Source: a virus. Taken from it: DNA of 20,867 bases. Positions within the stretch are counted from its first letter, which is position 1; each line of letters opens with the position of its first letter. The stretch spans positions 1-20,867 of the IMG/VR virus record IMGVR_UViG_3300024518_003973, one strand, 5' to 3'. Below the pieces are notes generated by a model that ran no database searches, was not told the origin of the DNA, and was given only the letters and a program-made list of their open reading frames with translations. Of this stretch, positions 2,361-15,687 are shown piece after piece. The translations under genes were made by a program, and so were the position numbers.

Positions 2361-2839
2361 TGATGGGTGAGGAACCTGACGAAATAACCCTCGATGACGA
2401 GGAGCAGACCCTTGTCAGGGTGCTGGCGGCGCTACGCAACGGGAACAACTTGATCAACTCGGTGCGATCCTCCAAGATGTCGCCCAGAGGCGACTACGAG
2501 GTGAACTTGGACGGCATGGGCGGCGAATACGCATTCGCCAAGATAAAGAACCTCTGCCCCGACTTCGGCATTGGCCCCCGTTCGGGAGGACATGACTTCG
2601 TTGACCGCAAGGGAAACACCGTGGACGTGAAGACCAACCCCAAGGAAGACGGCGACCTGTTGGTGCGAGCGTCCAAGAAAGACCGTCCCTCCGACTGGTA
2701 CGTGCTGATGACGGGCGAGTTTCCCCGATACAGTTACCGGGGATACGTCCACAGGAGGGAATTGTTCTCCGACTCGCGCCTCGTTGACCTCGGTCACGGC
2801 GACACTTACCTCGTCCCGCAAAAGGAGTTGACCCTGTGA
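2360..2839 (+). CDS. putative PD-(D/E)XK-superfamily nuclease
   Basis: This 159-aa protein contains a compact restriction-endonuclease-like signature: GGEYAFAKI (E56), GGHDFVD (D79) and NTVDVKTN (D89-V-K91), followed by a beta strand DLLVRAS. These are the acidic and lysine positions expected of a PD-(D/E)XK metal-dependent nuclease. The C-terminal half has aromatic-rich beta segments (DWYVLMTGEFPRYSYRGYVHR). Its place between an SSB-like protein and the replication initiator suggests a role in replication intermediates, recombination or attack on host DNA. The start overlaps the previous stop (TGATG). A second ATG at 2363 could be used instead; GAGGAGGAGG lies about 15 bases upstream. The superfamily call is from visible motifs only. 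Confidence 0.65.
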   Translation: MMGEEPDEITLDDEEQTLVRVLAALRNGNNLINSVRSSKMSPRGDYEVNLDGMGGEYAFAKIKNLCPDFGIGPRSGGHDFVDRKGNTVDVKTNPKEDGDLLVRASKKDRPSDWYVLMTGEFPRYSYRGYVHRRELFSDSRLVDLGHGDTYLVPQKELTL

Positions 2840-3612
2840 GCAAGCGATACGTCGAAAGCACCCAGTTCACCGATCCTTGGTTCAGGAGACTGTCGCCGGA
2901 AGCGAAACTGTTCTGGCACTTCCTGACCCTCCATTGCGACCATTCCGGGGTATGGGAGAGGGACGATGACTACTGCAAGTATCTGACGGGCTTGAAGAAG
3001 TCTCCGAAAACGCTCTTGAACGAACTCGGCGACCGTGTAATCGAGTTGTCCGAAAACAAGGTGCTTTTGCCCAAGTTCATACTTTTTCAGCAGGGAAAAA
3101 CCCTCTTTGAAGCAAAACCACCCCATCGTGGCATACTGAAACTGCTCTCCAAGCATGACCTCGAAATGGATGCAGACGGCATTACCAAGCCGATTGTTAA
3201 GTTAACCTTAACCAAAGCAAAGGCAAAGGATAACTTAACCTTAACCTTACCAAAGGTTACAAGTAATAGTATACGTAATGGTAAAGGTATAGATAAGGAA
3301 GGGAGTGTGAGGGGAACCATTCCCGAACTTCCCGAACTTCCCACCGAACTGGATCACATCGGATTCATAGCGGTCTGGGACGAATGGACGTCGTATCGCA
3401 GGGAACGCAAGCTCCCCCCCTACAAGCCCGCCGCCCTCAAGGCCAACCACTCCCGGTTCGTCCAATGGGTCGCCGACTACGGAATGACCTCGGTCATCGA
3501 GTCGATCCGAAACTCCATCGCCAACAATTACAACGGACTGTTCCAACCCAAGTCCTCCACCGCCCTGCGTGACGAACCGATTGACCGAGACTACGAAAAT
3601 GCCCTCGACTGA
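2836..3612 (+). CDS. replication initiator-like protein (winged-helix plus DnaD/O-like C-terminus)
   Basis: This is a 258-aa protein. The N-terminal ~95 residues (from RYVESTQFTDPWFRRLSPEAKLFWHFLTLHCD) have the layout of phage replisome-organiser winged-helix domains. A low-complexity linker (about residues 120-160, rich in K, T and L) leads to a C-terminal helical domain with VWDEWTSYRRERKLPPYKPAALKANHSRF and NSIANNYNGLFQPK, a pattern common in phage initiators of the DnaD or lambda O type. It should bind the origin and recruit the helicase loader encoded next. The start is GTG 2836, with AAAGGAG eight bases upstream and a GTGA overlap with the nuclease stop. The linker is encoded by DNA carrying TTAACC repeats, a possible origin inside the gene as in lambda O. 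Confidence 0.7.
   Translation: MSKRYVESTQFTDPWFRRLSPEAKLFWHFLTLHCDHSGVWERDDDYCKYLTGLKKSPKTLLNELGDRVIELSENKVLLPKFILFQQGKTLFEAKPPHRGILKLLSKHDLEMDADGITKPIVKLTLTKAKAKDNLTLTLPKVTSNSIRNGKGIDKEGSVRGTIPELPELPTELDHIGFIAVWDEWTSYRRERKLPPYKPAALKANHSRFVQWVADYGMTSVIESIRNSIANNYNGLFQPKSSTALRDEPIDRDYENALD
3197..3260 (+). repeat. TTAACC direct repeats with hairpin, candidate iterons inside the initiator gene
   Basis: TTAACC occurs as two tandem pairs, at 3202-3213 and 3235-3246, each embedded in similar sequence (pairs followed by CAAAG-type purine tracts). A 7-bp inverted repeat follows, TAACCTT at 3242-3248 and AAGGTTA at 3253-3259, with a four-base loop. The flanks to about 3295 are A+T-rich (AAGTAATAGTATACGTAATGG), unlike the surrounding sequence. 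The tract encodes the linker of the initiator-like protein. Iterons next to an A+T-rich patch within an initiator gene are the known layout of lambda ori. Origin function is an inference, and a low-complexity linker alone could produce such repeats. Confidence 0.5.
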
Positions 3613-4381
3613 ACCAACCGCCCTCCCGACCACCCTCTCCGAACTGACCGAAAGCGACGTCGACTGGGAGAACGCCCCCCAAGTGACCGTCACTTGCCCG
3701 GAATGCAAGAAAGACCATCAGCACAACAAGTATCTCGCCGCCATATTCCCCAATGCCCTCTGTGACGGCTGTAGTGGTGCCTATGACCCTCGTTCGGGGG
3801 GCAACCAATACCTTGACCCCATTCACGACACGCAATCAATCCTAGACACTTGCATGCCCTCGCTCTACCTGAACACCGACCCATCGCGCATACCCACCCC
3901 CCAACTCCACCAAGTCACCTCCTGGTCACCCAACCCCATCGGGCTGTGGATCACCGGGGACACTCGCACCTTCAAGACCCGATCCGTCTGCGAACTGATC
4001 AAGACACTCGTCCGAACACACACCGTAACCACTTTCTTTCACGGCGGATTCAACGACCAAATACTAGACGTCATGCGATCCGAGCAGTCGTTCCGCAAGT
4101 TCAAGCGGAAACTATCCAACACCCCCATACTCTTCATAGACGACTTGTTCTCCTCCAAGCTCACCGAACGAGCCGAATCAACCCTATTCGAAATCATGGA
4201 CGCTCGCATTTCAAACCAATTGCCCACCCTAGTCACCACCCAAGCCACCAAGAACGATTGCAGAAAAATCTTCGCCAACCCCAAACGACTCGACGCGCTG
4301 TTCGAACGGGTCAAGGAATTCTTCACCCTCGTGAACACCAACGCATTCGCCAAGCAGGCGAACCTCAAACTCTCCGAGTAA
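3599..4381 (+). CDS. DnaC-like helicase loader ATPase with N-terminal zinc finger
   Basis: This 260-aa protein has a C4 zinc-binding motif (CPEC at 33-36, CDGC at 55-58) followed by an AAA+ core. The Walker A position reads G120-DTRTF-K126-T127, keeping the first glycine, lysine and threonine but lacking the usual inner glycines of GxxGxGKT. Walker B is LFIDD (178-182). A TTQAT sensor-like strand (213-217) and LFERV near 235 resemble sensor I and arginine-finger regions. DnaC-type loaders place the replicative helicase on origin DNA, and the gene directly follows the initiator-like gene with a 14-base overlap, matching an initiator/loader pair. I prefer ATG 3599; an in-frame GTG at 3569 is possible. 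The coding strand is markedly C-rich. Confidence 0.8.
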   Translation: MPSTEPTALPTTLSELTESDVDWENAPQVTVTCPECKKDHQHNKYLAAIFPNALCDGCSGAYDPRSGGNQYLDPIHDTQSILDTCMPSLYLNTDPSRIPTPQLHQVTSWSPNPIGLWITGDTRTFKTRSVCELIKTLVRTHTVTTFFHGGFNDQILDVMRSEQSFRKFKRKLSNTPILFIDDLFSSKLTERAESTLFEIMDARISNQLPTLVTTQATKNDCRKIFANPKRLDALFERVKEFFTLVNTNAFAKQANLKLSE

Positions 4382-4401
4382 CCAACCAACCACCAACCAA
4401 C

Positions 4402-4770
4402 ATGCCCGACCCGGCCACCAACAAACTCAAGCAATCCATGAACGACTTGTTCAGACTCAAGGACCAAGACCAAGTGGCTCAACTACCACCGGACGAATTC
4501 AAGACACTGGTAGCCGCCAAACTACAACACCTCGTCAACCAACTGGCGGACAGAATGCATCACGAAATAGATTCAATGCCCGCTTCCAAGTTACCTCTAG
4601 CTTTCGGCATACTTCAGGACAAACTCCTCAACCTACAGGGCGAGGCAACCGTTCGCACGCAGAAAACCATCACCGTCTCTCACCAAGACTTCAACCAGAT
4701 ACTTCAAGCCCTTCCCGCCAAACCCGAAGTCATCGAGAACAACATACAGGACGTTCCCCAATCCAAGTGA
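4402..4770 (+). CDS. small helical phage protein, unknown function
   Basis: A 122-aa product starts at ATG 4402, twenty bases after the loader stop. It is predicted mainly helical (DEFKTLVAAKLQHLVNQLADRMHHEIDSMPASKLPLAFGILQDKLLNLQGE) with a polar tail rich in E, N, Q and P. The family is not recognised. The pattern suggests a small adaptor or DNA-metabolism accessory protein, by position only. The open frame extends upstream to 3850, but that part overlaps the loader and reads as a low-complexity H/R/P-rich shadow, so ATG 4402 is the likely start. There is no Shine-Dalgarno site: the leader at 4381-4401 is built of repeated ACCA units. The next gene lies 472 bases away, so this probably ends the first operon. 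Confidence 0.65.
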   Translation: MPDPATNKLKQSMNDLFRLKDQDQVAQLPPDEFKTLVAAKLQHLVNQLADRMHHEIDSMPASKLPLAFGILQDKLLNLQGEATVRTQKTITVSHQDFNQILQALPAKPEVIENNIQDVPQSK

Positions 4771-5242
4771 TCCAACCCATTCCAATGAATACCTTCCATT
4801 CAGTACGCTCCGCAGGAAGTCAGGGGGGTTTTAATCACGTACCAATAACGTACTCGTTTGTTGGGATGGTGTATTAATATAGGGGGGATGGAAGGAAACG
4901 TGTCAAGGGTAAAATTAAGGTGGGTCAAATCGGTTGCAGGTATTGCACCCCCCCACAAAACCTGCGCGCCCAAGTCACTTAATGAGACTGATCCGGGCCG
5001 AACTTATTGAGACTGAAGTCGGGAATATGCACAACCTATCTTACCATCAGAGAGTTATGAATATTTCACCATTTCGCATAATAAGCATTATGTCTAATCG
5101 CAGTCGGGGGGCGGGGGTGGAGGGGGTTGCCAAGTCGCTTCTCGGAACCGTATTTGGGCAACGAAATTTTTTTACCAAAAGAGCATATTTCCCTTACCCC
5201 TCAAAACCCGAATATCACCAGTTCGCGCAAGGAAATCGTTGA
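4771..5242 (+). promoter_or_regulatory. 472-bp intergenic region with repeats: origin and/or promoter candidate
   Basis: No convincing gene is seen here; the frame ending at 5242 lacks a good start and looks non-coding. Contents in order: a weak hairpin (CTTCC 4793-4797, GGAAG 4815-4819) followed by G6 and TTTT, a possible terminator; two ACGTAC copies 11 bp apart (4837, 4848); an A+T-rich TATTAATATA before G6 (4872-4887); an inverted repeat GCAGGT/ACCTGC (4936-4941, 4960-4965) with a C7 loop; two imperfect 21-22 bp direct repeats (4977-4997, 5002-5023); a CATAAT/ATTATG hairpin (5077-5092); and a G-run cluster (5106-5126). AAGGA at 5229-5233 is the ribosome site for the next gene. GC skew reverses across the region. 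Confidence 0.6.
4977..5023 (+). repeat. pair of imperfect direct repeats
   Basis: Two copies of ACTTA(A/T)TGAGACTGA followed by a CGGG end lie at 4977-4997 and 5002-5023, with starts 25 bp apart. They match over the first 15 positions with one change, then differ by an insertion before CGGG. They lie at the centre of the largest early intergenic gap. Such paired sites are typical of binding sites for a repressor or initiator. No second pair was found elsewhere in the window by eye. Confidence 0.6.
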
Positions 5243-5464
5243 ATGCCGGGTAATTCGAAACGTGGAGGAGAGGAAGAATTGGACGCTATGGACTGGAGTG
5301 AGGGAGATGGATTGAGTGGTCGGGACAAGGCGAAGATCGAATTGGCTATGGATCGTTTTTGGTCGAAGCGTGGAATGCGGAAGGGCGGAGGAGACTTTGA
5401 TTTCGGTGGCAAGGGGAAGAGGGTTGGAAAGAAGAGGCGCGCGAGGAGGAAGAGGGATGAGTGA
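5243..5464 (+). CDS. small charged protein with basic C-terminus, unknown
   Basis: A 73-aa product starts at ATG 5243, with AAGGA nine bases upstream. The first half is acidic (EEELDAMDWSEGDG). The second half becomes glycine- and lysine/arginine-rich, ending KGKRVGKKRRARRKRDE, a tail likely to bind nucleic acid. No family is recognised. It is the first gene of the G-rich block and probably the first gene behind any promoter in the preceding gap. Its last codons overlap the next gene by eight bases, which supports it as a real translated unit. Confidence 0.6.
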   Translation: MPGNSKRGGEEELDAMDWSEGDGLSGRDKAKIELAMDRFWSKRGMRKGGGDFDFGGKGKRVGKKRRARRKRDE

Positions 5465-5747
5465 GGATGGATGGGTGAAGGAGATTAGGGTCAGGGGTTT
5501 TGAGTATGACTATGGCGAATCGGTTTGGTTTGTGTTGCCCGTGAGTGACGAGGGGAGAATTTTGCATGGTTTGGCGTGTACGGGGAGTTCCCGTGGGTTA
5601 ACTGTTCCACGGGTGGCAAGTCCGTTGGTGTATTCAAGGAAGAGTCATGCGGTAAAGAGGGCGAGGATGCTGGCCAAGGTATTTGATTTGGACGTGGTGA
5701 AGGTATATTTGATTACCAGAGAGGAATGCCGGGAGGTTAGGGCATGA
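5457..5747 (+). CDS. small phage protein, unknown
   Basis: A 96-aa product starts at ATG 5457, with GAGGAGGAAGAGGG immediately upstream and an eight-base overlap with the previous stop. The frame is open further upstream to 5316, but that part overlaps the previous gene. The sequence is mixed alpha/beta: GESVWFVLPVSDEGRILHGLACTG looks like beta strands, and KSHAVKRARMLAKVFDLDVVKVYLI a helix and final strand. Family and role are not recognised. The stop overlaps the next start as ATGA, pointing to coupled translation. Confidence 0.6.
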   Translation: MSEDGWVKEIRVRGFEYDYGESVWFVLPVSDEGRILHGLACTGSSRGLTVPRVASPLVYSRKSHAVKRARMLAKVFDLDVVKVYLITREECREVRA

Positions 5748-5932
5748 TTGATCGTTGGGAGTGTCAGCCGGAGGATTGGAGTGACCCGCCTGAGAGGGAA
5801 GACTTGGAGGAGAGTCGAGATGACTGGGCGGATCGCGCGCGTCCGGGTAGAGAGAGGTGTAGTGGGTGTGGTGAGGAGTGGTCTGTGGGTGATGACGGAT
5901 GCAAGTGCGGGGAGGGTGATGGGGATGAGTAA
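5744..5932 (+). CDS. small acidic four-cysteine protein, possible zinc ribbon
   Basis: A 62-aa product starts in an ATGA overlap with the upstream gene. It is strongly acidic (PEREDLEESRDDWADRAR), and its C-terminal part carries C39-x2-C42 and C53-x-C55, a spacing that could bind zinc, before ending EGDGDE. A longer frame on the same strand (from 5748) overlaps it fully, but upstream of 5925 that frame is arginine/valine-rich shadow sequence. The role is unknown; a small metal-binding regulator or a host-interacting protein is possible. Confidence 0.55.
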   Translation: MIDRWECQPEDWSDPPEREDLEESRDDWADRARPGRERCSGCGEEWSVGDDGCKCGEGDGDE

Positions 5933-6161
5933 AACCCCGAAGTGGCGTGACAAGGCGCTTGATTTGGGGTCAAAGACTCAAGAAAAGCGGGTGACTTTCC
6001 GCTTGCCGAAAGATTTGCACAGGCGGGTCAAGGTGGTTCTCAAGTTTTACGGCATACGGATGACGGACTTGTTGCTTGCGTCTTTGGATACTCAATTGCA
6101 GATAGAGGAGGAGCATTTTCAGAATTTTGGGTGGAACACCGAGGAGGGTGATGGGGAGTGA
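5925..6161 (+). CDS. ribbon-helix-helix DNA-binding protein
   Basis: A 78-aa product begins MSKTPKWRDK, with GGAGGG eight bases before ATG 5925 and an eight-base overlap with the previous gene. Residues about 19-57 (KRVTFRLPKDLHRRVKVVLK, then the GIRMTDLLLASLDTQLQ helix) match the ribbon-helix-helix layout of Arc/MetJ/CopG-type proteins: a beta strand with alternating residues, a helix, then a second helix with hydrophobic spacing. Such proteins bind DNA as dimers and usually repress promoters. It is one of two candidate transcription regulators in the window and could act on the repeats at 4977-5023 or the palindrome at 10586-10600. An ATG at 5919 is an alternative start. Confidence 0.72.
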   Translation: MSKTPKWRDKALDLGSKTQEKRVTFRLPKDLHRRVKVVLKFYGIRMTDLLLASLDTQLQIEEEHFQNFGWNTEEGDGE

Positions 6162-6261
6162 AGGGGAGTGGAGGATGTTGGGTGGGATGTGTTTGTTGTT
6201 ATGGCAACTGGAGAGTTGGACTGGCGTTGCGTACTGGGTGATAGGGAAGTTATGGGAGTGA
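6151..6261 (+). CDS. short hydrophobic peptide gene, possible membrane miniprotein
   Basis: A 36-aa frame starts at ATG 6151, with GAGGAGGG just upstream and an 11-base overlap with the RHH gene, and ends three bases before the next ATG. From residue 9 it is hydrophobic and tryptophan-rich (MLGGMCLLLWQLESWTGVAYW), so it could span or lie on a membrane. Support is the ribosome site and exact fit between neighbours; the short length makes chance possible. Confidence 0.4.
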   Translation: MGSEGEWRMLGGMCLLLWQLESWTGVAYWVIGKLWE

Positions 6262-6264
6262 GCC

Positions 6265-6477
6265 ATGAGTGAGGACACGAATTGGAGCCGGGAACTTGTC
6301 ACGACTGCCGAGCAAGCGAGGGAGGAAGAGCAACTAAGCAAAGTGGACAGGTGCCGGATGTGGATAGATTTCCGTACTTGGTTCCATCACCACGACACGG
6401 GAACCTCGCTTGTCCACTCGATCAACTACCATGCGATAAAGAAGAACCGAGAAAAAGTGGAAATGAATTATGAATGA
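6265..6477 (+). CDS. small phage protein, unknown
   Basis: A 70-aa product starts at ATG 6265 with GGGAG six bases upstream. It is polar and probably helical at first (ELVTTAEQAREEEQLSKVDRCRMWIDF), with a short HHHD cluster and a basic end. No family is recognised. A competing frame from 6282 covers nearly the same bases, but it has no ribosome site and a cysteine/proline-rich composition typical of a shadow. Its stop overlaps the start of the next gene by eight bases. Confidence 0.5.
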   Translation: MSEDTNWSRELVTTAEQAREEEQLSKVDRCRMWIDFRTWFHHHDTGTSLVHSINYHAIKKNREKVEMNYE

Positions 6478-6946
6478 AGTGAAGGAAGGAATGATCAAGC
6501 AGAGCATGGGAGACTGGGCGCGAGAGGAGGAAGCGTTTGCGGTGGCCCTTGGGTTGAAGCGTGAGAAGTTGTCCTCCTTGAGAAAGGAACACCTGGAGGA
6601 AGGCGAGCATTGGGGGAAGGTGAGCGGACGCATCACCTACCGAGTGGGCGGCGAGGTGAAGATGCGTGGAGTGGTTGCGTTGTTGCTGGGCATTGAGGAG
6701 AAGGAGGTTGTGGTTGACGAGGAGGTTGGCCGGGAAGAGCCGGAGGACTTGGAGGTATTGAGGGTATTCCCGGTGAATCGGCGCTTGGTGGAGTGTGGTC
6801 GGGACAACGGCGAGGTTGTGAGGGTGACTGTGGGCGACAACGTGAATTTTTTGAAGGGGATGGTCTTGAAGGCGCGCCCTCCTTGGGGTAGTGGCAGGTT
6901 ATGGGTGCTGGTTGGTCGCAGACCGAGGTGGCGGGGGAAGTGGTGA
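6470..6946 (+). CDS. phage protein with possible N-terminal HTH-like region, unknown
   Basis: This is a 158-aa product. Residues about 12-55 (GDWAREEEAFAVALGLKREKLSSLRKEHLEEGEHW, then a basic beta segment SGRITYRVGGEVKM) resemble small phage DNA-binding modules in which a helix-turn-helix is followed by a wing, but this is a weak visual match. A glutamate/valine-rich linker follows, then a beta-rich C-terminus (LEVLRVFPVNRRLVEC, VVRVTVGDNVNFL) ending in a basic tail, RRPRWRGKW. Codons are heavily G-biased. The function is unknown; a transcriptional or DNA-binding role is only a guess. Confidence 0.6.
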   Translation: MNEVKEGMIKQSMGDWAREEEAFAVALGLKREKLSSLRKEHLEEGEHWGKVSGRITYRVGGEVKMRGVVALLLGIEEKEVVVDEEVGREEPEDLEVLRVFPVNRRLVECGRDNGEVVRVTVGDNVNFLKGMVLKARPPWGSGRLWVLVGRRPRWRGKW

Positions 6947-6984
6947 GAAGTATTTGAATCAATGAAATCAACGAAGGGAATGAA

Positions 6985-7557
6985 GTGAGCGTGATATTGG
7001 AAACGAAGATAGAGGAATTCAGGGAAGCGTTGACTGCCGGGATGGATGGCATTGTCAGGGCAAGCGAAATCTACGTGGATGCGTTGGACGATGATCCTCG
7101 AAACGCCGACAAGTTTCAATCTGTCTTTGCGGATTGGGTGCCTGCGTCCGCATGGAAGCAGTTTGAGGCAGTCGGGAGGAAATGGATGCACCCGAAGTTG
7201 TTGATGGGGGGAATGTCGAACAGGCGGAAGGCGCATATGGTGAAGTCGTTGCCGTATTCCTTGCAGGAGAGGATATTTTCAGGGGAACGCTTTCCTTTGC
7301 TGGTCGGTGGCGGCGACGTGATGCAAGTGACGGTGATGGACGCAACGCTGGATCAAGTGGGGCAATTGTTCACTCAAGATGGATTGCGTAGTTTGTCGGG
7401 GCAAAAGTCTCGGTTGGAGGAGATTTCCTTGGTCGAGGAAACGGAAGCGGCAACCCCGGAGGTAATGCCATACGTGATCCACGGTGGATCGGTGACGTTT
7501 AGAAAGGGAGTGAGGATGACCAGAACGGAGTTGAAGCGCTTGTTGCAGGAGATGTGA
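6985..7557 (+). CDS. phage protein, unknown function (190 aa)
   Basis: The start is GTG 6985, with AAGGGAA upstream. The protein has a helical N-terminus (ETKIEEFREALTAGMDGIVRASEIYVDAL), a central stretch with WVPASAWKQFEAVGRKWMHPKLL and SNRRKAHMVKSLPYSLQERIFSGERFPLL, and a beta-rich C-terminal half, before a basic helical end (RMTRTELKRLLQEM). The central part looks like a globular alpha-helical domain with conserved-looking aromatics, but I do not recognise the family. An eight-codon reading frame (6962-6988) precedes and overlaps its start. It lies in the block of unassigned genes before the terminase, so either an early regulatory role or a packaging-related role is possible. Confidence 0.7.
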   Translation: MSVILETKIEEFREALTAGMDGIVRASEIYVDALDDDPRNADKFQSVFADWVPASAWKQFEAVGRKWMHPKLLMGGMSNRRKAHMVKSLPYSLQERIFSGERFPLLVGGGDVMQVTVMDATLDQVGQLFTQDGLRSLSGQKSRLEEISLVEETEAATPEVMPYVIHGGSVTFRKGVRMTRTELKRLLQEM

Positions 7558-8165
7558 TGGAGTTTCCCGTGATGAGAGGGCCATCGAGGGCGCGGAATAC
7601 CTGGCAGAGGGAAACTTCCAGATTCGTGTCTTGGTTGCACAAGCGCCGGGAGAGGAACTTGCCCGAAGGCGAGGGAACGAATGCGTGGACACGGCGACGT
7701 TTCGTGTCACAAGAGGAGGTGGAGAAGTGTCGCTGGGAGAAGAGTGGGCGGGCTTATGCCAGAGTGAGTCGTGAGAATGCCCCGTATTCGAACGGATGGA
7801 TGATTTGGAAGCAGGGATATTACCGGGTGGAACCGCTGGAGGAACTGGATGGCGGGACTTGTTGCCTTATGAGGCAATCGTGCGCGGACGGATTTCCGCA
7901 CAATGACAGGAATGTGTTCAGGGAGATGTTTCGGGAATTCTTGTCGCGCCGGGAAAAAGAGGCGCTGGACTTGAGGCGGGAGGAGTATCGGGCATGGAGT
8001 GACGGTGAATCGGAGAGGAAAGCGAGCGAGATCGAGCGAGATCGGGAGGAGGGGCAAAGGGCGAAGACGCTGGCGAAGGTGACTTTTCCGGGGGCAACCA
8101 GAGAATTTTTTCAATCCTTGGCGATTGCGGGGAGTATAAATCGAAAAACAAAGGGAATAAAATGA
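7557..8165 (+). CDS. phage protein, unknown function (202 aa)
   Basis: This protein is arginine-, glutamate- and tryptophan-rich. The first ~90 residues contain SRFVSWLHKRRERN and WTRRRFVSQEEVEKCRW, and the next part GWMIWKQGYYRVEPLEEL. The second half is a long charged helix, probably coiled-coil (VFREMFREFLSRREKEALDLRREEYRAW through ERDREEGQRAK). No family is recognised. CAGGAG lies five bases before ATG 7557, which overlaps the previous stop as TGATG; a GTG at 7554 is less well placed. Its own stop overlaps the next small gene (ATGA). Position upstream of TerL and a coiled coil leave open a small-terminase role, but there is no positive evidence. Confidence 0.65.
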   Translation: MEFPVMRGPSRARNTWQRETSRFVSWLHKRRERNLPEGEGTNAWTRRRFVSQEEVEKCRWEKSGRAYARVSRENAPYSNGWMIWKQGYYRVEPLEELDGGTCCLMRQSCADGFPHNDRNVFREMFREFLSRREKEALDLRREEYRAWSDGESERKASEIERDREEGQRAKTLAKVTFPGATREFFQSLAIAGSINRKTKGIK

Positions 8166-8341
8166 GCAGGAGCGTGGGAAGTGGAACGGACAAGGTATTG
8201 CGCCAATGGGAGCAAGTGAACGAGCGCAAGGAGATGTCGCAGGAGATCTCCAAGTTCTTCAAGGACAGTTTGGGGCGGAAGAAGTCCGCCGGGAAGAAAT
8301 CGAAGGCGAAAACAAAATCAAACAAGGGGAAAAAGAAATGA
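8162..8341 (+). CDS. small lysine-rich protein, unknown
   Basis: A 59-aa frame begins in an ATGA overlap with the previous gene and ends in another ATGA overlap with the nuclease-like gene, so it fits exactly between neighbours. The first ~38 residues are a charged helix (DKVLRQWEQVNERKEMSQEISKFF). The remainder is a lysine tail ending KSNKGKKK, which would bind nucleic acid non-specifically. The frame of the next gene is open back to 8206, but that segment is out of frame with this better-placed gene. A role near packaging is suggested by position only. Confidence 0.6.
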   Translation: MSRSVGSGTDKVLRQWEQVNERKEMSQEISKFFKDSLGRKKSAGKKSKAKTKSNKGKKK

Positions 8342-8706
8342 GTGATAACAACAAGGCGGCATGGAGATACGAGGCGAGTTTGCTCCGGGTAATAGACGGA
8401 GACACGGTGGATGCGATGCTTGACTTGGGTTTTTCGACCCATCGGAAGGTACGCATACGCTTCTACGGGATAAATACACCTGAAACGCGCACCAGGGACG
8501 CTGAAGAGAAAAAGGCGGGCAAGAAGGCGACTGCCCGGTTGATCGAGTTACTTTCCACCGGGAGCTTCGTCTTGAAGAGTCATGGCGTGGGAAAATTTGG
8601 TCGTTGCTTGGGCGAACTGTTCACCGAGGAACTTGGCGAAGTCTCCGTTAATCAGACCTTGATCGATGAAGGATTGGGCGAAGCGTACTTTGGCGGCGCG
8701 AGGTGA
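8338..8706 (+). CDS. staphylococcal nuclease-like protein (SNase family)
   Basis: A 122-aa product starts at ATG 8338, with AAGGGGA about seven bases upstream. It has the SNase fold signature: RVIDGDTVDAMLDLG (D20, D22), RIRFYGINTPETR (R41, E49) and GKFGRCLGEL, with an arginine matching the third catalytic position, then LIDEGLGEAYFGG. Compared with the VDTPE of staphylococcal nuclease, the calcium-ligand aspartate is N46 here; this occurs in some SNase relatives, so activity is likely but not certain. It is a minimal single-domain enzyme without an obvious signal peptide, so it should act in the cytoplasm. It overlaps both the preceding small gene and the terminase gene, linking it to late DNA processing. 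Confidence 0.85.
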   Translation: MSDNNKAAWRYEASLLRVIDGDTVDAMLDLGFSTHRKVRIRFYGINTPETRTRDAEEKKAGKKATARLIELLSTGSFVLKSHGVGKFGRCLGELFTEELGEVSVNQTLIDEGLGEAYFGGAR

Positions 8707-10322
8707 CCGAACCTCCCCCTATGGCCCAGTTGAGTCAGCACCCCGTGTTGGCGTTGCCCACGCGCAAGCAGGCGAAGGCAATGGGGGAGAAGGAACTGAA
8801 GAAGTTGCTGGACAAGAGGGAACTGCTCATCCGAAACGAGCGTGACGATCCTTACCATCATGGATTTGAGCCGGAGCATTGGGAGCAGGCGGACAAATTG
8901 CGCGAGGAATGCTCGGAACTAGTGATTCTGGGCGGAAATCGGTCTGGCAAGAGCGAGTATGCGGCGAAGGCAGTCGTGAAGACCTTGGTGGAGTACGAGG
9001 ACAGCAACGTCATCTGCATGCACACCACTTCCAGCACCTCGGTGGAGCAACAGCAGGCGTTGGTCTGGAAGTATCTGCCGAAGGAGTGGAAGACTGCTCG
9101 CAAAAGCAGAACGACCAATTTGACCTACTCGGTGAAGAACGGATTCACCGAAGGGTCGTTGGTCGGGCCAAATGGTTCGAAGGCATACTTTCGCAACTAC
9201 AGTCAAAAGGCGGAGGGCATAATGGAAGGTTCCGAATGGGACTTGGCGTGGGCGGACGAATTATGTCCCTTGGAGATCATAGAATCCCTTAGATTTAGAT
9301 TAGTCACGCGCGCGAGGGCGAATCCGAGGAACGGGTTGATCCTCACCTTCACCCCCATCGCCGGATGGAGCAACACGGTGAAGGCGTATCTTCAGGGGGC
9401 GAGGACGGTCGAGTCGGCGCCCGCGCACTTGCTGGGGGGCGAGCTTGTCCCGGTGGTACAGCAATGCGTTCGCCCCGCCGCCAAGATAATGTACTTCCAC
9501 ACCTTGTGGAATCCATACAACGACTACGAGGCGCTGGTGAAGACCTTGGAGGGAGAGGCGAGGCACAACATACTGTGTCGCGCGTACGGAATTCCACAGC
9601 GCCAGTCACAGGCGGCGTTCCCTTTGTTCTCAAGTCGGCACCTCCTGGCAACCGACCAGATCGCCAAGGAAGGCACCAATTACATGGTGGTCGATCCGTC
9701 AAACGGAAAGAACTGGGTGATGGGATGGTTCCGAGCGGCGCCCAACGGAATACACTACTGCTACCGTGAATGGCCCACCCCTGACGAATACATCCCCGGC
9801 GTAGGTCATGCGGGCGAGTGGGCGTTGCCCGGAAAGAAGATAGACGGTGACGCTGGCCCCGCCCAGCAAACCTTCGGGTTTTCCTTGGATCGCTACAGGG
9901 AGGAAATCGAGAGAGTGGAGGACGGGGAGGAAATCTTTCTGCGCATAATGGACAGCAGGTTCGGAGCGTCCCCCACGCCGACCAAGAGCGGGGTGACCAC
10001 GCTCATCGACCAAATGGGTGACTTGGGACTGCACTTCGTCCCCGCATCGGGGGTGAGCATCAACGAGGGGGTTACCATGATAAGCGACGTCATTCATTGG
10101 AAACCCCATGCCGAAAATCCCGATGACCCGACCAGCATGCCGAGATTCTTTCTGGATGAGTCATGCAAGAACATGGCGTTCGCCCTGACCAGTTGGACGG
10201 GGGCGGACGGAAAGCACGGGGCCACCAAGGATTTCGTTGACGTTGCGAGGATGTACTTCACCGCGGCGCCCCAGTACGTCGACCTGAATGCGGGCGTTCT
10301 GCATCCGGGCGGATACTACTAG
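8703..10322 (+). CDS. terL: terminase large subunit
   Basis: This 539-aa protein is the packaging motor that translocates DNA into proheads and cuts it. The ATPase domain has Walker A GGNRSGKS (77-84), Walker B WDLAWADE (179-186) and the coupling motif LTFTP (214-218). The nuclease domain has its metal-binding acids in MVVDPSNGK (D331), RIMDSRFGASPT (D417) and KDFVDVARMYF (D510, D513). All expected motifs are intact. The start GTG 8703 overlaps the nuclease stop (GTGA), but it has only a weak ribosome site; ATG 8721 is an alternative. It ends just before a repeat-rich gap. No recognisable small terminase lies next to it. Confidence 0.95.
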   Translation: MTEPPPMAQLSQHPVLALPTRKQAKAMGEKELKKLLDKRELLIRNERDDPYHHGFEPEHWEQADKLREECSELVILGGNRSGKSEYAAKAVVKTLVEYEDSNVICMHTTSSTSVEQQQALVWKYLPKEWKTARKSRTTNLTYSVKNGFTEGSLVGPNGSKAYFRNYSQKAEGIMEGSEWDLAWADELCPLEIIESLRFRLVTRARANPRNGLILTFTPIAGWSNTVKAYLQGARTVESAPAHLLGGELVPVVQQCVRPAAKIMYFHTLWNPYNDYEALVKTLEGEARHNILCRAYGIPQRQSQAAFPLFSSRHLLATDQIAKEGTNYMVVDPSNGKNWVMGWFRAAPNGIHYCYREWPTPDEYIPGVGHAGEWALPGKKIDGDAGPAQQTFGFSLDRYREEIERVEDGEEIFLRIMDSRFGASPTPTKSGVTTLIDQMGDLGLHFVPASGVSINEGVTMISDVIHWKPHAENPDDPTSMPRFFLDESCKNMAFALTSWTGADGKHGATKDFVDVARMYFTAAPQYVDLNAGVLHPGGYY

Positions 10323-10413
10323 TGATAGCATGATAGCAAGTTCTCTATTTCACGAAGTTTTAAAACGGTATGGGGAGCAGTCACAGTTATTGAAAAATGC
10401 CCTCATGCTACAT

Positions 10414-10567
10414 GTTAGCCCCGACTTTTCGACCCTCCCAAGAGGGAAAACCCCTGTTTCATGCGGATAAATCTTTAGTTAGCCCCGACTTTCCCCGGAT
10501 TTTCAACCCATCCCTGCTCCTGTTTCCCTGTTTCATGCGGATGATCCTTTGATCTTCCCCGGATTTC
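10414..10567 (+). repeat. duplicated motif module
   Basis: Three exact or near-exact direct repeats alternate: GTTAGCCCCGACTTT at 10414-10428 and 10478-10492 (64 bp apart); CCCTGTTTCATGCGGAT at 10452-10468 and 10526-10542 (74 bp apart); and TTCCCCGGATTT at 10491-10502 and 10555-10566 (64 bp apart). The first two define a module present twice in tandem, with diverged filler between motifs. Conserved motifs separated by variable filler suggest protein-binding sites rather than a recent simple duplication. Confidence 0.75.
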
Positions 10568-10577
10568 GGAAAAGAAC

Positions 10578-10606
10578 TTGACGAGGGTGAATTGTTCACC
10601 TATGTC
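10578..10606 (+). promoter_or_regulatory. promoter-like site with palindrome in the spacer
   Basis: TTGACG at 10578-10583 is five of six matches to a sigma70 -35 box. It is followed after 17 bases by TATGTC at 10601-10606, a weak -10 box (three of six). The spacer ends in a perfect 6-bp inverted repeat, GGTGAA (10586-10591) and TTCACC (10595-10600), centred on TTG. A palindrome between the two boxes is where a repressor, or a MerR-type twisting activator, would bind. It lies about 30 bases ahead of a small HTH gene and the portal gene. Confidence 0.5.
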
Positions 10607-10635
10607 GGAAATTATGGGGGATTTCTGATGAAGTG

Positions 10636-10842
10636 ATGACGGAGGGAGAACCACAGGGGATGTTGCTACGCAGGCGGCACGTGTTGTCGTGGTTGGGTAT
10701 TGACGCAGACCTGTTCGCCAAGTGGAGGGAGTGCGGAACGCTTCGTCCCGTCTACGTTGGTGGCAAGCGACCCTTCTACCTCAAGGAAGACATAAAGCAA
10801 TTGGTGGAGGATGCGATTGATGAGCGAGAAAGAACTGATTAA
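10636..10842 (+). CDS. small helix-turn-helix protein (excisionase/MerR-like)
   Basis: A 68-aa product contains LLRRRHVLSWLGIDADLFAKWRECGTLRPVYVGGKRPFYLKEDIKQLVE, the layout of the short helix-turn-helix plus wing found in excisionase and MerR N-terminal domains (helix, turn, W residue, then GGKRPFY wing and final helix). It should bind DNA. Candidate starts are GTG 10633, ATG 10636 and ATG 10660; the last has GGAGGGAG upstream and still keeps the HTH. It follows the palindromic promoter-like site, so it may control its own operon. Alternatively it could be a DNA-recognition subunit for packaging. It overlaps the portal start by 23 bases. Confidence 0.7.
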   Translation: MTEGEPQGMLLRRRHVLSWLGIDADLFAKWRECGTLRPVYVGGKRPFYLKEDIKQLVEDAIDERERTD

Positions 10843-13015
10843 GAAGACGGACGAACCTGAAGTCCCCCTGCTCCAAGAGGAGTTGCGCTCGGTCATGGAG
10901 GACGCATCGACTGCCCTTCAGCACCGTGACACTTACGAAGACGTCCGATTTTCACGGCATGACGGTCAATCCGAGGACGGCAGGAAGCACGAAAGCGACT
11001 TGGGTTATCCGCCCACCCCGTGGGAAGGCGCATCCGATGTTCGCATCCGACTGGGTGATCGACTGGTGAACGAACACGTCAACATGGCGGTCACCGCATT
11101 CTTTCGGGCCAATCTTCGCATCACGGGAATAGGGGTGGAGGACAACAGAAGCGCCGCAATCTGGGGAGACGTCTTGAAGTACTACCTTCACCAGAAACTG
11201 CTTCCCGAACTTAGGGCGGAAGTGGAGATACTCGCCCAAAACGTCTACGGATCTTCGCCGGGGGTGGGAATACTTGGAATTTACTGGACGCAGGAAGTGT
11301 CCACCCGAATGAAGACCTTTACCCTCGATGACGTTATCCAGACGGTATTCGCCGCCGGAGGTGACCAGGATGCGGTTGCCGACGTGGTGGCCCTTCTTCA
11401 AGACAAGGATACGGAGGAACAGGCGCTTGAATTGATGCGCCCCCAGTTCCCCACCGTGGATGACAAGAAACTCAAGAAGGCGTTGAAGGACTTTCGGAAG
11501 GACGGGGAAGCGAAAATTCCGCAACCGTACCTGAAGGAGAATCGCCCACGCTTCGTTGCCCATCGACTGTACGAGGACGTCTTCGTTGCGGGGAACGTCA
11601 CGAATTTGGAACGGGCGGAAGTAGTGTTTCGCCGTGAATGGATGACCGAAACGGAGGTTCGGGAAAAAGGAATTACCGAGGAATGGCCGACCGAGTTTGT
11701 CGATGAAGTCATCGAGAACACGGAAGGCATGACCGCAGTACCCGAAGCGGATCAACGATTCCCCCTGAACTTCGGAATGCGCCAAACCTTTGCGGATCGC
11801 TCCAGCGATTTCGAAAACCTTTACGAAATATATTACGCCTACACCAAGACCTATGACGAGGATACGGACGTCCCCTGCATATACTGCACCGCATTTTCCG
11901 CCCACATAGACGACCTGTGGGGCAAGCACGAAATGCTGAACTACTCGCACGGGCAAATGCCGTTCGTACTCTTTTCGAGGGAAAGACTTTCCCATTCGAT
12001 CTTCGATTCACGGGGAATTCCCGAACTGGTGGCGACCAACCAATACGAAATAGCCACTCAACGCAATTTGCGCTCGGACGCATCACAGATCGGTACAATC
12101 CCACCAATGCTTGTCAACGCTCGCCGGGGGGGAATCAATCTGTTGGTTGCTCCGGGCGCTCAATTGACGGTCACTCGCCCCGATGACGTGGGATGGTTGC
12201 CACCGCCACCGTTCCCAAGTGGTTCGGTTGAAGCGGAGAACGCCGCCCTCAAGGACGTGGAGGACTACTTCGGCGGGGATGATCCTGGCAAAAGAATGCT
12301 TCACCAGCAGTCGGTCACCGACAAATGGTTGGATTCATGGCGCATTGCCTTGGATCAAGCGTTCCGCCTCATGCAACAATACATGTCGCCGACCACCGTC
12401 CAGAGACTGACCAACGGCAAGCCGGAGGAAGTCTCGGTGAGTCAGGAGGACATTCAGGGCAAGTTCGACCTCGCTTTGCGGTTCTCCATAGACGTATTGA
12501 ATCCCGAATTTCAGGAAAAGAAACTGGATGCAATCGTGAAACTCACCCAGTTCGACGTCACCGGGGCGCTGGATCGCACCAAACTACTTCACTTCATAGC
12601 GGAAACGATTGACCCGCAACTGGCGGACGCAGTCGTGATGGATCAAACCGCCGCAAGCGCGCGTGAAATCTCGGACGAGCAGGACGCATGGGTGAAGATC
12701 GCCCTCGAAATCGAACCTGTGATGACCGAGGACGTGAACTTTCCGTTGAGACTTCAAACCGCCCAGCAAATCGTTCAAGCGTCCACCGAAATACAAAAGA
12801 AGATGCAGGGGCAACCTATGGTCAAGCAACTTGCCGACAATCGCATCAAGTACCTCCAATTCGGTATAGCCCAGCAAGAAAACGCCCAAATTGGCAGGGT
12901 AGGCACTTCCCCAATCGCCCAACAGCAACAACAGGAAGTCGCGCCGCAGGGTCAACCCCAACCACCACAGCAACCCCAACCCGAACCACAACCCGTGGAA
13001 GCGGGCGGATACTAG
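10820..13015 (+). CDS. portal protein
   Basis: This 731-aa protein is of the large podovirus portal type (SU10/P22-like layout). Near the start, YPPTPWEGASDVRIRLGDRLVNEHVNMAV is the characteristic portal N-terminal region, followed by a wing and stem with LRAEVEILAQNVYGSSPGVGILGIYW. About residues 365-425 contain the HGQMPFVLFSRERLSHSIFDSRGIPELVATNQYEIA block common to these portals. The C-terminal barrel region is helical, and the last ~40 residues are Q/P-rich (QQQQQEVAPQGQPQPPQQP). Portals form the dodecameric DNA channel at one capsid vertex and dock the terminase. ATG 10820 is chosen for GGAGG nine bases upstream; an ATG at 10811 has no room for a ribosome site. Confidence 0.88.
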   Translation: MSEKELIKKTDEPEVPLLQEELRSVMEDASTALQHRDTYEDVRFSRHDGQSEDGRKHESDLGYPPTPWEGASDVRIRLGDRLVNEHVNMAVTAFFRANLRITGIGVEDNRSAAIWGDVLKYYLHQKLLPELRAEVEILAQNVYGSSPGVGILGIYWTQEVSTRMKTFTLDDVIQTVFAAGGDQDAVADVVALLQDKDTEEQALELMRPQFPTVDDKKLKKALKDFRKDGEAKIPQPYLKENRPRFVAHRLYEDVFVAGNVTNLERAEVVFRREWMTETEVREKGITEEWPTEFVDEVIENTEGMTAVPEADQRFPLNFGMRQTFADRSSDFENLYEIYYAYTKTYDEDTDVPCIYCTAFSAHIDDLWGKHEMLNYSHGQMPFVLFSRERLSHSIFDSRGIPELVATNQYEIATQRNLRSDASQIGTIPPMLVNARRGGINLLVAPGAQLTVTRPDDVGWLPPPPFPSGSVEAENAALKDVEDYFGGDDPGKRMLHQQSVTDKWLDSWRIALDQAFRLMQQYMSPTTVQRLTNGKPEEVSVSQEDIQGKFDLALRFSIDVLNPEFQEKKLDAIVKLTQFDVTGALDRTKLLHFIAETIDPQLADAVVMDQTAASAREISDEQDAWVKIALEIEPVMTEDVNFPLRLQTAQQIVQASTEIQKKMQGQPMVKQLADNRIKYLQFGIAQQENAQIGRVGTSPIAQQQQQEVAPQGQPQPPQQPQPEPQPVEAGGY

Positions 13016-13130
13016 TGACTTTGCCTTTTTCTCATCATAAACCATCCCTATGGTTGGGTTTGCCGTCCGATTCGTTGTCCGGGTCAAAAGTTCTAACCTT
13101 ACGGGTTGGCGGCAAACCCTCTTTCCTTTA
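13016..13130 (+). promoter_or_regulatory. structured leader with long inverted repeat between portal and next gene
   Basis: The gap contains a hairpin AACCAT/ATGGTT (13040-13055, four-base loop), directly followed by a 10-bp perfect inverted repeat, GGGTTTGCCG at 13056-13065 and CGGCAAACCC at 13110-13119. The latter encloses a 44-base loop that includes a smaller AACC/GGTT pairing. The second arm ends 11 bases before ATG 13131, where no Shine-Dalgarno site is visible, and is followed by TCTTTCCTTTA. This could be a terminator/attenuator, an RNA processing site or a translation control element. Confidence 0.5.
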
Positions 13131-13412
13131 ATGAGGTTTTTCCGACAAAGGGCGAAACTCGTTCGTTACGATGACAAGTTGAGCGAAGCGGACGTGAAGG
13201 ATGCGTTCTGCTCCATCTCTCCGGGCAATCCGTTCTGGCAGGCGCTGGATCACGTCATCGACCAAACCCTCCTCGATGCGATTGATGACGTGTCCGATCC
13301 GAAGAATGCGGAAAAACCCGGATCACTCGCCCACGCCGCTGGAGGAGTGGACAAACTTTCGACGTTGAAATCTAAAATTCAGAATCTTCGAATTCTGGAT
13401 AACTTGGGGTAG
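13131..13412 (+). CDS. small protein between portal and scaffold, unknown
   Basis: A 93-aa product starts at ATG 13131: a basic N-terminus (MRFFRQRAKLVRYDDK), then an acidic helical middle (LSEADVKDAFCSISPGNPFWQALDHVIDQTLLDAIDDVSD) and a polar C-terminal helix (KLSTLKSKIQNLRILDNLG). The same frame is open upstream to 13050, but that part coincides with the inverted repeats. No ribosome site is evident. Small acidic helical proteins are often found between portal and scaffold in podoviruses and may assist head assembly, but this assignment is by position only. Confidence 0.6.
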   Translation: MRFFRQRAKLVRYDDKLSEADVKDAFCSISPGNPFWQALDHVIDQTLLDAIDDVSDPKNAEKPGSLAHAAGGVDKLSTLKSKIQNLRILDNLG

Positions 13413-13415
13413 TTA

Positions 13416-13466
13416 AAGGGTATTCACGTCGTAACCCTCTGCTTTTCGGGGCGGGGGGTTTTTCTT
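13416..13466 (+). terminator. possible rho-independent terminator with alternative pairing
   Basis: AACCC at 13433-13437 can pair with GGGTT at 13456-13460, followed by a T-rich run (13459-13467, TTTTTCTTT), the layout of an intrinsic terminator, with an 18-base loop. The same left arm could instead pair upstream: AGGGT at 13417-13421 with ACCCT at 13434-13438. Two exclusive hairpins are how attenuators work. The stem is short, so the call is tentative. It lies just after the stop of the 93-aa gene and before scaffold and capsid genes. Confidence 0.45.
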
Positions 13467-13623
13467 TCCGTAAAAGGAATGTGTTCTCATGGGTACGATG
13501 GGTTTGTGGAACGGACGCATTGATTAACCGCATCCCCACCCCCCATAGGTGAATGCGATGTGCCTTTGGTATGTCCCTTCCGGGTGGGCCACCCGTGACA
13601 GTCAACCCTTGTGAGACGTAAAA
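13467..13623 (+). promoter_or_regulatory. structured region upstream of the scaffold gene
   Basis: About 155 bases without a supported gene. They contain a CGCATT/AATGCG inverted repeat (13516-13521, 13552-13557) and a near-perfect palindrome CGGGTGG-G-CCACCCG (13581-13595). A 12-codon frame with AAGGAAT upstream (13489-13527) is possible but not called. No clear -35/-10 pair is visible, and the scaffold ATG at 13624 lacks a clear ribosome site. The palindrome may be an operator or an RNA hairpin in the capsid-gene leader. Confidence 0.4.
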
Positions 13624-14634
13624 ATGCCAAGTGATGCAAAAGAGGTCGCTCCTGAAACAGCTGAAGCAACAGAGGGAATATTCGACGTAGCGGTAAGTGA
13701 CATTGCCAAGGCGGCGAATGCTCCACAAACGTTCATTGATAGTCTGACGTCCAATGATGGCGAAGCATCCGAACCTCAAGAGGTAGAGGAAGAGGAAGAA
13801 GTCATCGAGGAAAACGAGGACAACGAGGAGGAAGTCGAGGAAAGCGAGGAAGACCAGGAAGAAGAGGAGCAGGAGGAAGTCGAGGAGGAGGAACCGAAAG
13901 GTGATTCGCCCGGAATCAAGAAGCGAATTGGAAAACTGGTCGAACGAGCGAAGAAAGCGGAAGCGGAAGCGGAACGACTGCAAACGGAACTGAACGGTCA
14001 GCAGGGTGAATCCCGGCAGGACAATTCGACTCCCGGCGCGGATCGTTTCGAGACAGTCACCGATTCGCAGAAACTGGACAAGATGGAAGCGGACGCTGAA
14101 CACCTTCGGGAATGGTTGATAACTAATCCGGAGGGCGGCGAATACGCAGATCGAAGCGGCGGCAAATACGACGTCGATTACGAAACTGCCAAATCCCTTC
14201 ACGTCCAGACAGACCGAGACTTGCGCAAGAACATCCCGAACCAACGGGCGAATCTTCACCAGAGGGCAACTTCATTCCAGCAGGCGAACGCAACGTTCCC
14301 GTGGATGCAGGACAACGGCACAAGTGAATTCGTGGAAATGGCCGGGATACTTGCAAACAATCCGAGGGCGAAGAAGTTCTACGAATCCGATCCGAACGCC
14401 GCTCTTTTCTTTGGTTACGCCGTGGAGGGCTATAAGTCAGTCCACGCCAAGGAAGGGAAGGGCAAGAAGGTCAAACCAGTAGCTCAAGCGCCCACCTCAG
14501 TCCCAACTTCGACCCGCGCAAAACGGGCAACGAAGAACACTTCGGGCGCCGCAAAGCAAAGCAAACTGAAGAAACAGGCGCTAAGTAGCGGCGACCAACA
14601 TGACGTCAGAAGTTACCTCGAAAGCATCATTTAA
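13624..14634 (+). CDS. capsid scaffolding protein
   Basis: A 336-aa protein sits between portal and major capsid genes. Residues about 50-92 are almost entirely acidic (long E runs with D, N, Q and S), followed by a basic helix and coiled coil (KKRIGKLVERAKKAEAEAERLQTELNGQ). A helical middle carries YDVDYETAKSLHVQTDRDLRKNIPNQRANLHQRATSF, and the C-terminus is basic (KGKKVKPVAQ..., RAKRATKNTSGAAKQSKLKKQ). Acidic, coiled-coil proteins with a basic C-terminal capsid-binding helix at this locus are scaffolds that direct prohead assembly and then leave. Identification rests on composition and position. Confidence 0.78.
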   Translation: MPSDAKEVAPETAEATEGIFDVAVSDIAKAANAPQTFIDSLTSNDGEASEPQEVEEEEEVIEENEDNEEEVEESEEDQEEEEQEEVEEEEPKGDSPGIKKRIGKLVERAKKAEAEAERLQTELNGQQGESRQDNSTPGADRFETVTDSQKLDKMEADAEHLREWLITNPEGGEYADRSGGKYDVDYETAKSLHVQTDRDLRKNIPNQRANLHQRATSFQQANATFPWMQDNGTSEFVEMAGILANNPRAKKFYESDPNAALFFGYAVEGYKSVHAKEGKGKKVKPVAQAPTSVPTSTRAKRATKNTSGAAKQSKLKKQALSSGDQHDVRSYLESII

Positions 14635-14651
14635 AAATAGGATTTAATATA

Positions 14652-15668
14652 ATGGCCGGTCTAGTAGAACGCTCACAATCACTCAAACGTGAAGATCTTT
14701 CCGACCTTCTCGTTACCGTAGACAACGCCGCAACTCCCTTTACGAGTATGGCGCGCAAAGGGTCTGCTCCCAAGAACTCCCTGGTGGAGTGGGGACTTGA
14801 CGCATACCCGGCGCCTCGCACCACGCCAGTCGTGGATGACGCAGACGTTTCGAGTTACGAAAACATGTCTTCTGATCGCCAGAAGGCGCAGAATTACGTA
14901 CAGATTTTCCAACGGGCGCCGAAAGTGTCTCGTCTGGCTAATCTCACCTCCGACGTCGCAGGCGTGGGATTCAAGCAGGAAATGGCGAAAGCCATCGCCA
15001 AGGCGCTTGTCATGGTGAAGAGAGACATGGAAAGTACCTTTCTCGGAAACAACGATGCTCAAGCCGACAACGGCACCATCGGATATGGTTCCAAGGCGGC
15101 GAACATCATCATCAGCACTTCCGGCGGTTCAACGCTTCAAATTCCGTCTGGTTTTCGCACTCCGTCCGCTTCGATCAACGCCGATTCCACGCAGGTCAAC
15201 CTGACCGAAGAGGAAGTTCGCGCCATATTGAAGTCGATCTGGAACGAGACTGGAGAGAACAACAAGTCGTTTACCGGGATTTGTGGTTCCAGCGTGAAGA
15301 ACACCGTGTCGCAAATGACTCTGTATCGTCCCGCCGCCGGAGATGGCGGAACCAAGACGGTCTACATTCAGAGCAACCGTGATGCGGCGGACGCAACACT
15401 CACAAGCGGAGTTGACGTAATTGATACTGACTTCGGTAAAATCACCCTGCACCTCGATTCGTTCATTCGTTCGGATTCAAGCACAGCAGGGCCATTGACG
15501 TTGTACATCTTCAACATGGACAACATCGAGATCAAGTACGCTTCGCAACCATCCTTCAGGGAACTTCCCGACTTAGGTGGTGGCCCGCGCGGACTTGTCG
15601 AATCAGTTGCAACTCTTTGCTCATACTCCGGGGGACTGGATCACGGCAAAATCGTCTTAACCGCTTAA
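14652..15668 (+). CDS. major capsid protein, SU10/DUF5309 type
   Basis: This 338-aa protein has the opening typical of the SU10-type major head protein family: residues about 10-60 read REDLSDLLVTVDNAATPFTSMARKGSAPKNSLVEWGLDAYPAP. It continues with NYVQIFQRAPKVSRLANLTSDVAGVGFKQEMAKAIAKALVMVKRDMESTFLGNN, the spine-helix region of an HK97 fold. The C-terminal beta region includes FGKITLHLDSF and the P-domain-like PLTLYIFNMDNIEIKY. It forms the icosahedral shell. AGGA about ten bases upstream is a modest ribosome site. Its place after the scaffold supports the call. Phages with this type include short-tailed phages with elongated heads. Confidence 0.9.
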   Translation: MAGLVERSQSLKREDLSDLLVTVDNAATPFTSMARKGSAPKNSLVEWGLDAYPAPRTTPVVDDADVSSYENMSSDRQKAQNYVQIFQRAPKVSRLANLTSDVAGVGFKQEMAKAIAKALVMVKRDMESTFLGNNDAQADNGTIGYGSKAANIIISTSGGSTLQIPSGFRTPSASINADSTQVNLTEEEVRAILKSIWNETGENNKSFTGICGSSVKNTVSQMTLYRPAAGDGGTKTVYIQSNRDAADATLTSGVDVIDTDFGKITLHLDSFIRSDSSTAGPLTLYIFNMDNIEIKYASQPSFRELPDLGGGPRGLVESVATLCSYSGGLDHGKIVLTA

Positions 15669-15687
15669 TCGCAGGAGGAACAATAAT

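Follow-up and report, generated by a model that had tools for sequence, protein, structure and literature searches.

The virus record IMGVR_UViG_3300024518_003973 (IMG/VR) contains a strong reversal of guanine-cytosine (GC) skew across a row of genes that all point the same way. Our analysis reveals that this switch is real, inherited within a clade of phages, and unusual. It is centered on a noncoding gap (4771-5242), with a C-rich + strand in the genes to its left (block 1) and a G-rich + strand in those to its right (block 2), and its outer edges lie at particular genes. The window analyzed here is the entire 20.9-kb record (20,867 nucleotides), itself a genome fragment.

The initial annotation had described a same-strand gene array in which the + strand changes from C-rich to G-rich at the gap. 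Both points hold, as every well-supported gene is on the + strand, and skew is -0.34 before the gap and +0.42 after it. The base counts offered as examples were exact (27 C and 6 G at 4381-4440; 28 G and 5 C at 6661-6720). Least-squares segmentation placed steps at 3401, 4801, 5241, and 8421, which divide the window into five segments with skew of +0.03, -0.34, +0.09, +0.42, and +0.05. Thus, the extent first proposed for the island, 3300-8160, was roughly right but slightly narrow. The skew does fall toward the terminase gene, as had been noted, but it falls in an abrupt step at the gene for an SNase-type endonuclease rather than fading gradually.

Outside the island, intervals of 1.37 kb had a mean skew of 0.046 (standard deviation (sd) 0.074, range -0.09 to +0.24), and the island lies far beyond these values. 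A two-sided skew statistic was 0.33-0.43 in the clade and did not exceed 0.21 in any of 196 other viral loci (2.1 Mb), which are a convenience sample and not a census; the two-sided skew of the island is 1.5-2 times that of the strongest locus in this set. The skew was present at every codon position and at 4-fold sites, and was strongest in the noncoding spacers. Some short spacers were extreme: 4382-4401 lacks any G, and 6162-6264 is 46% G and 8% C. At 4-fold sites, C and G accounted for 56.5% and 16.6% in block 1 and for 17.7% and 48.3% in block 2, with about 35-40% C and 31-32% G in the flanks. The shift in composition is mainly a C/G swap, with GC content nearly constant across the blocks. 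Simple cytosine deamination was rejected as the cause, since the shift at 4-fold sites is mostly C/G.

Two diverged relatives, G002 (33.4 kb, nucleotide identity 72-92% in aligned pieces) and G003 (10.6 kb, 64-80% identity to the window), repeat the same five skew segments; a further contig, G001, is 99.99% identical to the window and was counted as non-independent. In all three phages, the first step occurs ~480-565 bp into a replication initiator gene, the plateau lies in the gap, and the last step is at the SNase gene. The right block is 3.2, 2.0, and 1.6 kb long across the three phages, with the SNase gene as its end every time. Since its length varies but its endpoint is fixed, the edge tracks a gene and not a distance. 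Third-position skew in the window, G002, and G003, respectively, was -0.47, -0.58, and -0.55 in the helicase-loader gene; -0.38, -0.49, and -0.73 in the gene at 4402; +0.47, +0.52, and +0.48 in the gene at 6470; and +0.05, +0.06, and +0.08 in the SNase gene. Orthologues with only 50-60% amino acid identity still keep the skew. Among loader homologues from other genomes of the probable host class (see below), third-position skew ranged from -0.40 to +0.72; as the sign varies, a skew intrinsic to the gene was rejected. Because block-2 genes found only in the window share the skew, while homologous loaders elsewhere are without it, we conclude that the pressure is positional and not a scar of mosaicism.

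The initial annotation had read the switch as the pattern of a replication origin and had proposed a cumulative-skew plot as a check. In the window, cumulative skew reaches its minimum at 4811 (raw) or 5230 (detrended). The detrended minimum also falls in the gap in G002 and G003, consistent with the earlier description of a local two-sided feature centered there. As the window is a fragment, the whole-genome check was done on G002. In G002, a mild G-richness of the genome as a whole puts the raw minimum near the start of the contig, and skew outside the island is +0.09 to +0.12 on the left (24 kb) and +0.09 on the right (5.6 kb). Thus, the minimum lies in the gap, but the opposite arms of a genome-wide origin are missing, and no relative with the skew but without the gap was found. 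The reading as a replication origin thus has partial support but is not established, and the gap may hold an origin that is local or confined to the prophage state.

The gap has lower GC content than its surroundings and carries paired repeats, G-tracts, and a dif-like Xer recombination site. It also contains a leftward promoter-like pair kept in the three phages; when alignment columns were shuffled, any leftward TTGACA/TATATT-like pair arose in 2 of 300 shuffles. Single strands of the gap folded no better than shuffles on either strand, a consensus fold of the three sequences was without covariation support, and an Rfam search and tRNA scan gave no matches. In the blocks, we detected no enrichment of FtsK-orienting polar sequences (KOPS), chi, or other polar motifs, and no octamer common to the blocks that could account for the skew. 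The FtsK-orienting motif GGGNAGGG, which is that of E. coli and may not be the host's, occurs 0-1 times in block 2 and 1-4 times in block 1 per phage.

We tentatively favor, at well below even confidence, a model in which transcription runs outward from the gap, as a rightward mRNA and a leftward antisense RNA that ends near an origin in the initiator gene. The gap would be a conserved control hub, and the skew would be the long-term imprint of processes running outward both ways. The rightward transcript would cover the accessory genes of block 2 and the antisense transcript the helicase-loader gene, so that the exposed or RNA-like strand would be the G-rich one on each side (+ on the right, - on the left). 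Given the gene-anchored steps, the neutral noncoding center, the outward G-rich strands, and the independence from gene identity, outward transcription units are the simplest account, and steps at fixed genes despite right blocks of three lengths fit such units better than a fork gradient. The conserved promoter-like pair in the hub and a left edge adjoining an origin-like segment also support this model. In phages, RNA-like strands are purine-rich, an old observation of Szybalski (PMC3269016), and a promoter that opposes pR is present at the lambda origin (PMC3985674). The dipole, its conservation, its gene-anchored edges, the conserved hub, and the origin-like segment at 3061-3300 are direct observations. 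We infer from them a causal role of transcription, the existence of the leftward RNA, and a composition driven by strand-biased mutation and not by selection.

Several observations weigh against outward transcription. The loader gene and the gene at 4402 need rightward transcription too, and under this model the antisense RNA would have to be the stronger or more frequent of the two. The spacing of the promoter-like pair (19-21) is atypical, and the accepted spacing range was widened post hoc. No rightward promoter was conserved in the gap alignment, and no terminator was found at either edge of the island. In addition, the shift is mainly a C/G swap, unlike the C-to-T signature usually linked with transcription. 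This swap is explained neither by outward transcription nor by a local bidirectional origin.

A bidirectional replication start in the gap, perhaps used only in the prophage or at an early stage, is the main alternative, possible but somewhat doubtful. Its leading strands would be G-rich outward, which is the sign observed, and the detrended minimum lies in the gap in three of three phages. The gap's conservation, paired repeats, and lower GC are also as an origin would have them, and RNA-based prophage origins in noncoding segments provide a precedent (PMC7157519). However, the rest of G002 lacks two-arm skew, the skew changes in steps tied to genes and does not decay, and the best origin anatomy is 1.5-2 kb further left, within the initiator gene. 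There, residues conserved in the three phages have identical codons in 66% (3061-3180) and 87% (3181-3300) of cases, compared to 42% in other genes (p=4e-6 for 3061-3300), and 3181-3300 contains TTAACC repeats followed by AT-rich DNA. The origin of lambda likewise sits within its gene O. This segment is a better origin candidate than the gap; if replication began in the gap, the segment would act as an enhancer or fork barrier, or would be a second origin. It adjoins the left edge of block 1, ~1.5-2 kb left of the gap. As a rightward fork from 3061-3300 would give a G-rich + strand in block 1, the opposite of that observed, an origin at this position fails to explain the skew.

It is rather unlikely that the skew reflects selection on the composition of RNA or single strands, in which Rho loading is avoided or invited, or strands are kept unstructured, by making block-1 transcripts C-rich and block-2 transcripts G-rich. 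Such selection would fit a shift seen at all codon positions and in spacers, and a C/G swap at constant GC is no simple mutation signature. Rho prefers C-rich, G-poor RNA, as block 1 would supply. However, a Rho loading site takes tens of bases, compared to 1.4 kb here, block 1 is translated, and opposite signs that meet at the gap are left unexplained.

A further explanation involves the Xer site. Its arms showed zero mismatches in dif scans, compared to 4-7 in random windows. Counterparts are present in G002 (25611-25638, center TAAGGA) and G003 (4645-4672, center TAAGCA), and the XerD arm, TTATGTCTAAT, is identical across all three phages. Both arms equal the dif arms of small-genome Opitutales/Puniceicoccales. 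When GTDB genomes were scanned for these arms, 10 matches were obtained, of which five belonged to Opitutales, Puniceicoccales, or another Verrucomicrobia record; in all five the center was TATATA and the site was present in a single copy. Of 19 further genomes from the group, 13 carried NNCGCACAA-N6-TTATGTCTAAT or a one-base variant when mismatches were allowed. In one genome (G030, 3.75 Mb), the dif-like site lies in the stretch where sampled skew turns from positive to negative, as expected of dif near the terminus. Genomes from this same class also encode homologues of the phage terminase, with identities of 46% and 37%. Because the dif-arm matches and terminase homologues agree in class, the host probably belongs to the Opitutales (Verrucomicrobiota). 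Seven viral contigs (L116, L127, L141, L149, L167, L173, and L178) also carry dif-like sites with the identical XerD arm and varied centers; these are probably other Opitutales viruses. As a separate observation, a stretch of an Opitutae-class chromosome (G426:C5:72000-128000; L285, L278, L286), taken in pieces of 18-19 kb, has skew between +0.26 and +0.44, which is very strong for a bacterial chromosome.

The center of the phage site differs from host dif at the XerD-proximal side, as does the center of the VGJphi attP (PMC5357621; PMC4246890). Integration at dif and self-resolution are therefore both possible roles, as judged from sequence. The XerC-side flank of the site is conserved and bears repeats. 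No integrated copy at a chromosomal dif was found, in searched genomes that held no close relatives. The Xer site as such was rejected as the cause of the skew, as the right-minus-left difference in skew is ~0.8 here but has a mean of just -0.01 (sd 0.14) at 55 dif-like sites of other viral loci.

In one scheme, which we consider quite unlikely, the hub would drive a divergent-RNA system in which leftward antisense R-loops, running through the loader gene to the initiator-gene origin, control or prime replication, the Xer site resolves or integrates the phage, and the dipole is the evolutionary trace of the circuit. It is also improbable that the Xer site is an attP that places the phage at host dif, so that the genome is opened at the gap, blocks 2 and 1 form the prophage ends, and host forks arriving from either side of the terminus run into them. 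The signs agree with forks entering both ends, the arms match Opitutales dif, and the center deviates on the XerD-proximal side like that of the VGJphi attP. However, the skew is limited to 1.4-3.2 kb at the ends, while forks would traverse tens of kilobases, and sampled skew of the G030 chromosome is just about 0.05-0.08. Moreover, G002 carries its own integrase, a prophage at dif was not found, and the other viral dif-like sites are without such skew. Finally, although phages are mosaic and block-2 gene content differs among the relatives, it is highly improbable that the blocks are pieces from sources of different composition, as the initial annotation had alternatively suggested, since GC content barely changes between them, unrelated block-2 genes (including the window-specific ones) share the skew, diverged orthologues keep it, and homologues elsewhere are without it.

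The window encodes an Erf-type annealing protein, an exonuclease, an O-like initiator, a DnaC-like loader, the SNase-type endonuclease, a terminase, and a major head protein, and G002 additionally encodes a tyrosine-type integrase, a RusA resolvase, and a cytosine methylase. From these gene sets, the clade most likely represents a temperate tailed phage. Since both ends of G002 overlap the two halves of the window, the full genome would be ~38 kb. Searches of GTDB genomes and INPHARED phages for close relatives matched only distant terminases, and profile searches with the initiator and block-2 proteins added no members to the three phages. The Puniceicoccales phage P8625 (KP792622) has neither the skew dipole nor a dif-like site. 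Elsewhere in these genomes, G002 contains a 2166-aa reading frame (9543-16043; L016) with a C-terminal ADP-ribosyltransferase domain of polyvalent proteins (PF18760, E=1e-20), and a 302-aa gene of the window (18281-19189) has a GC content of 73% at second but just 42% at third codon positions, which is atypical for the window.

Table 1. Features in and around the skew island, in window coordinates
Feature	Position	Strand	Basis
Replication initiator gene, O-like C-terminal part	2836..3612	+	phrog_18589 E=2e-8; phrog_678 'replication initiation O-like' E=0.004, residues 179-242
Candidate lambda-type origin within initiator gene (repeats, AT-rich, synonymous constraint)	3061..3300	.	codon comparison, alignment
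Two 33-bp direct repeats with TTAACCTTAACC	3187..3252	+	same in G002, degraded in G003
Block 1, C-rich + strand, skew -0.34	3401..4800	.	segmentation
DnaC-like helicase loader gene	3569..4381	+	phrog_50 E=4e-12
Conserved 122-aa gene, no assigned function	4402..4770	+	identity 75% in G002, 62% in G003
Gap: conserved noncoding hub, skew near 0, dipole center	4771..5242	.	alignment of three phages; segmentation
Leftward promoter-like pair TTGACA (4906-4901), 19 nt, TATATT (4881-4876)	4876..4906	-	kept in three phages
Two 13-bp direct repeats TTA[AT]TGAGACTGA, 25 bp apart	4977..5016	+	conserved in gap alignment
dif-like Xer site ATTTCGCATAA-TAAGCA-TTATGTCTAAT, 28 bp, 11-6-11	5071..5098	+	alignment, dif scans
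Conserved G-tract GGGGGGCGGGGGTGGAGGGGG	5106..5126	+	sequence, alignment
Block 2, G-rich + strand, skew +0.42	5243..8420	.	segmentation
Small Arc-like (ribbon-helix-helix) regulator gene, block 2	5925..6161	+	phrog_582 E=0.0014, weak
Conserved block-2 gene, no assigned function	6470..6946	+	identity 87% in G002, 72-76% in G003
Gene pair (6985-7557 and 7554-8165) absent from G002 and G003, skew like neighbors'	6985..8165	+	gene comparison
SNase-type endonuclease gene, right edge of island	8338..8706	+	PF00565 E=6e-10, phrog_452 E=4e-36
Terminase large subunit, beyond island	8703..10322	+	PF03237 E=8e-11

The region resembles the lambda-type replication module in having repeats and AT-rich DNA inside an initiator gene, a helicase-loader gene directly downstream, and a possible transcript against the early operon, as from the opposing pO promoter of lambda. 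It differs in that ~1.5 kb separates the candidate origin from the candidate opposing promoter downstream, and in that homology is limited to the O-like and DnaC-like families. We know of no lambda counterpart of the strong skew dipole. Like the skew minimum at bidirectional origins of bacterial chromosomes and plasmids, the switch runs from negative to positive at a noncoding region, but it covers only 1.4 kb plus 1.6-3.2 kb, steps at genes, and has no opposite arms elsewhere. The RNA-like strand of block 2 is purine- and G-rich, as in Szybalski-type asymmetry, whereas the sign in block 1 is reversed relative to the genes and would need antisense transcription, and the strength is unusual. 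The Xer site resembles the attP of VGJphi-type integrative mobile elements exploiting Xer (IMEX) and the cer/psi sites in being a single 11-6-11 site with host-dif arms, a XerD-proximal center difference, and a conserved flank; here, however, the carrier is a tailed-type phage, of which G002 has its own integrase. A noncoding phage segment as a possible transcript-dependent origin recalls the RNA-based origins of mycobacterial extrachromosomal prophages, but those adjoin parABS in phages without an integration cassette, while no par genes were identified here and G002 has an integrase. We conclude that the island represents known strand-asymmetry effects in a strong, local form, at a well-conserved control region.

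Phage and metagenome studies routinely take GC-skew switches as replication origins. The strong, conserved switch described here passes the cumulative-minimum test, fails the two-arm test, and lies ~1.5-2 kb from a better origin candidate. Should the cause be transcription or antisense RNA, the rule that skew marks origins needs a caveat, and such skew could reveal hidden antisense control. For an otherwise unplaced clade of tailed phages, the Xer site provides a sequence-based marker of the probable host, the Opitutales.

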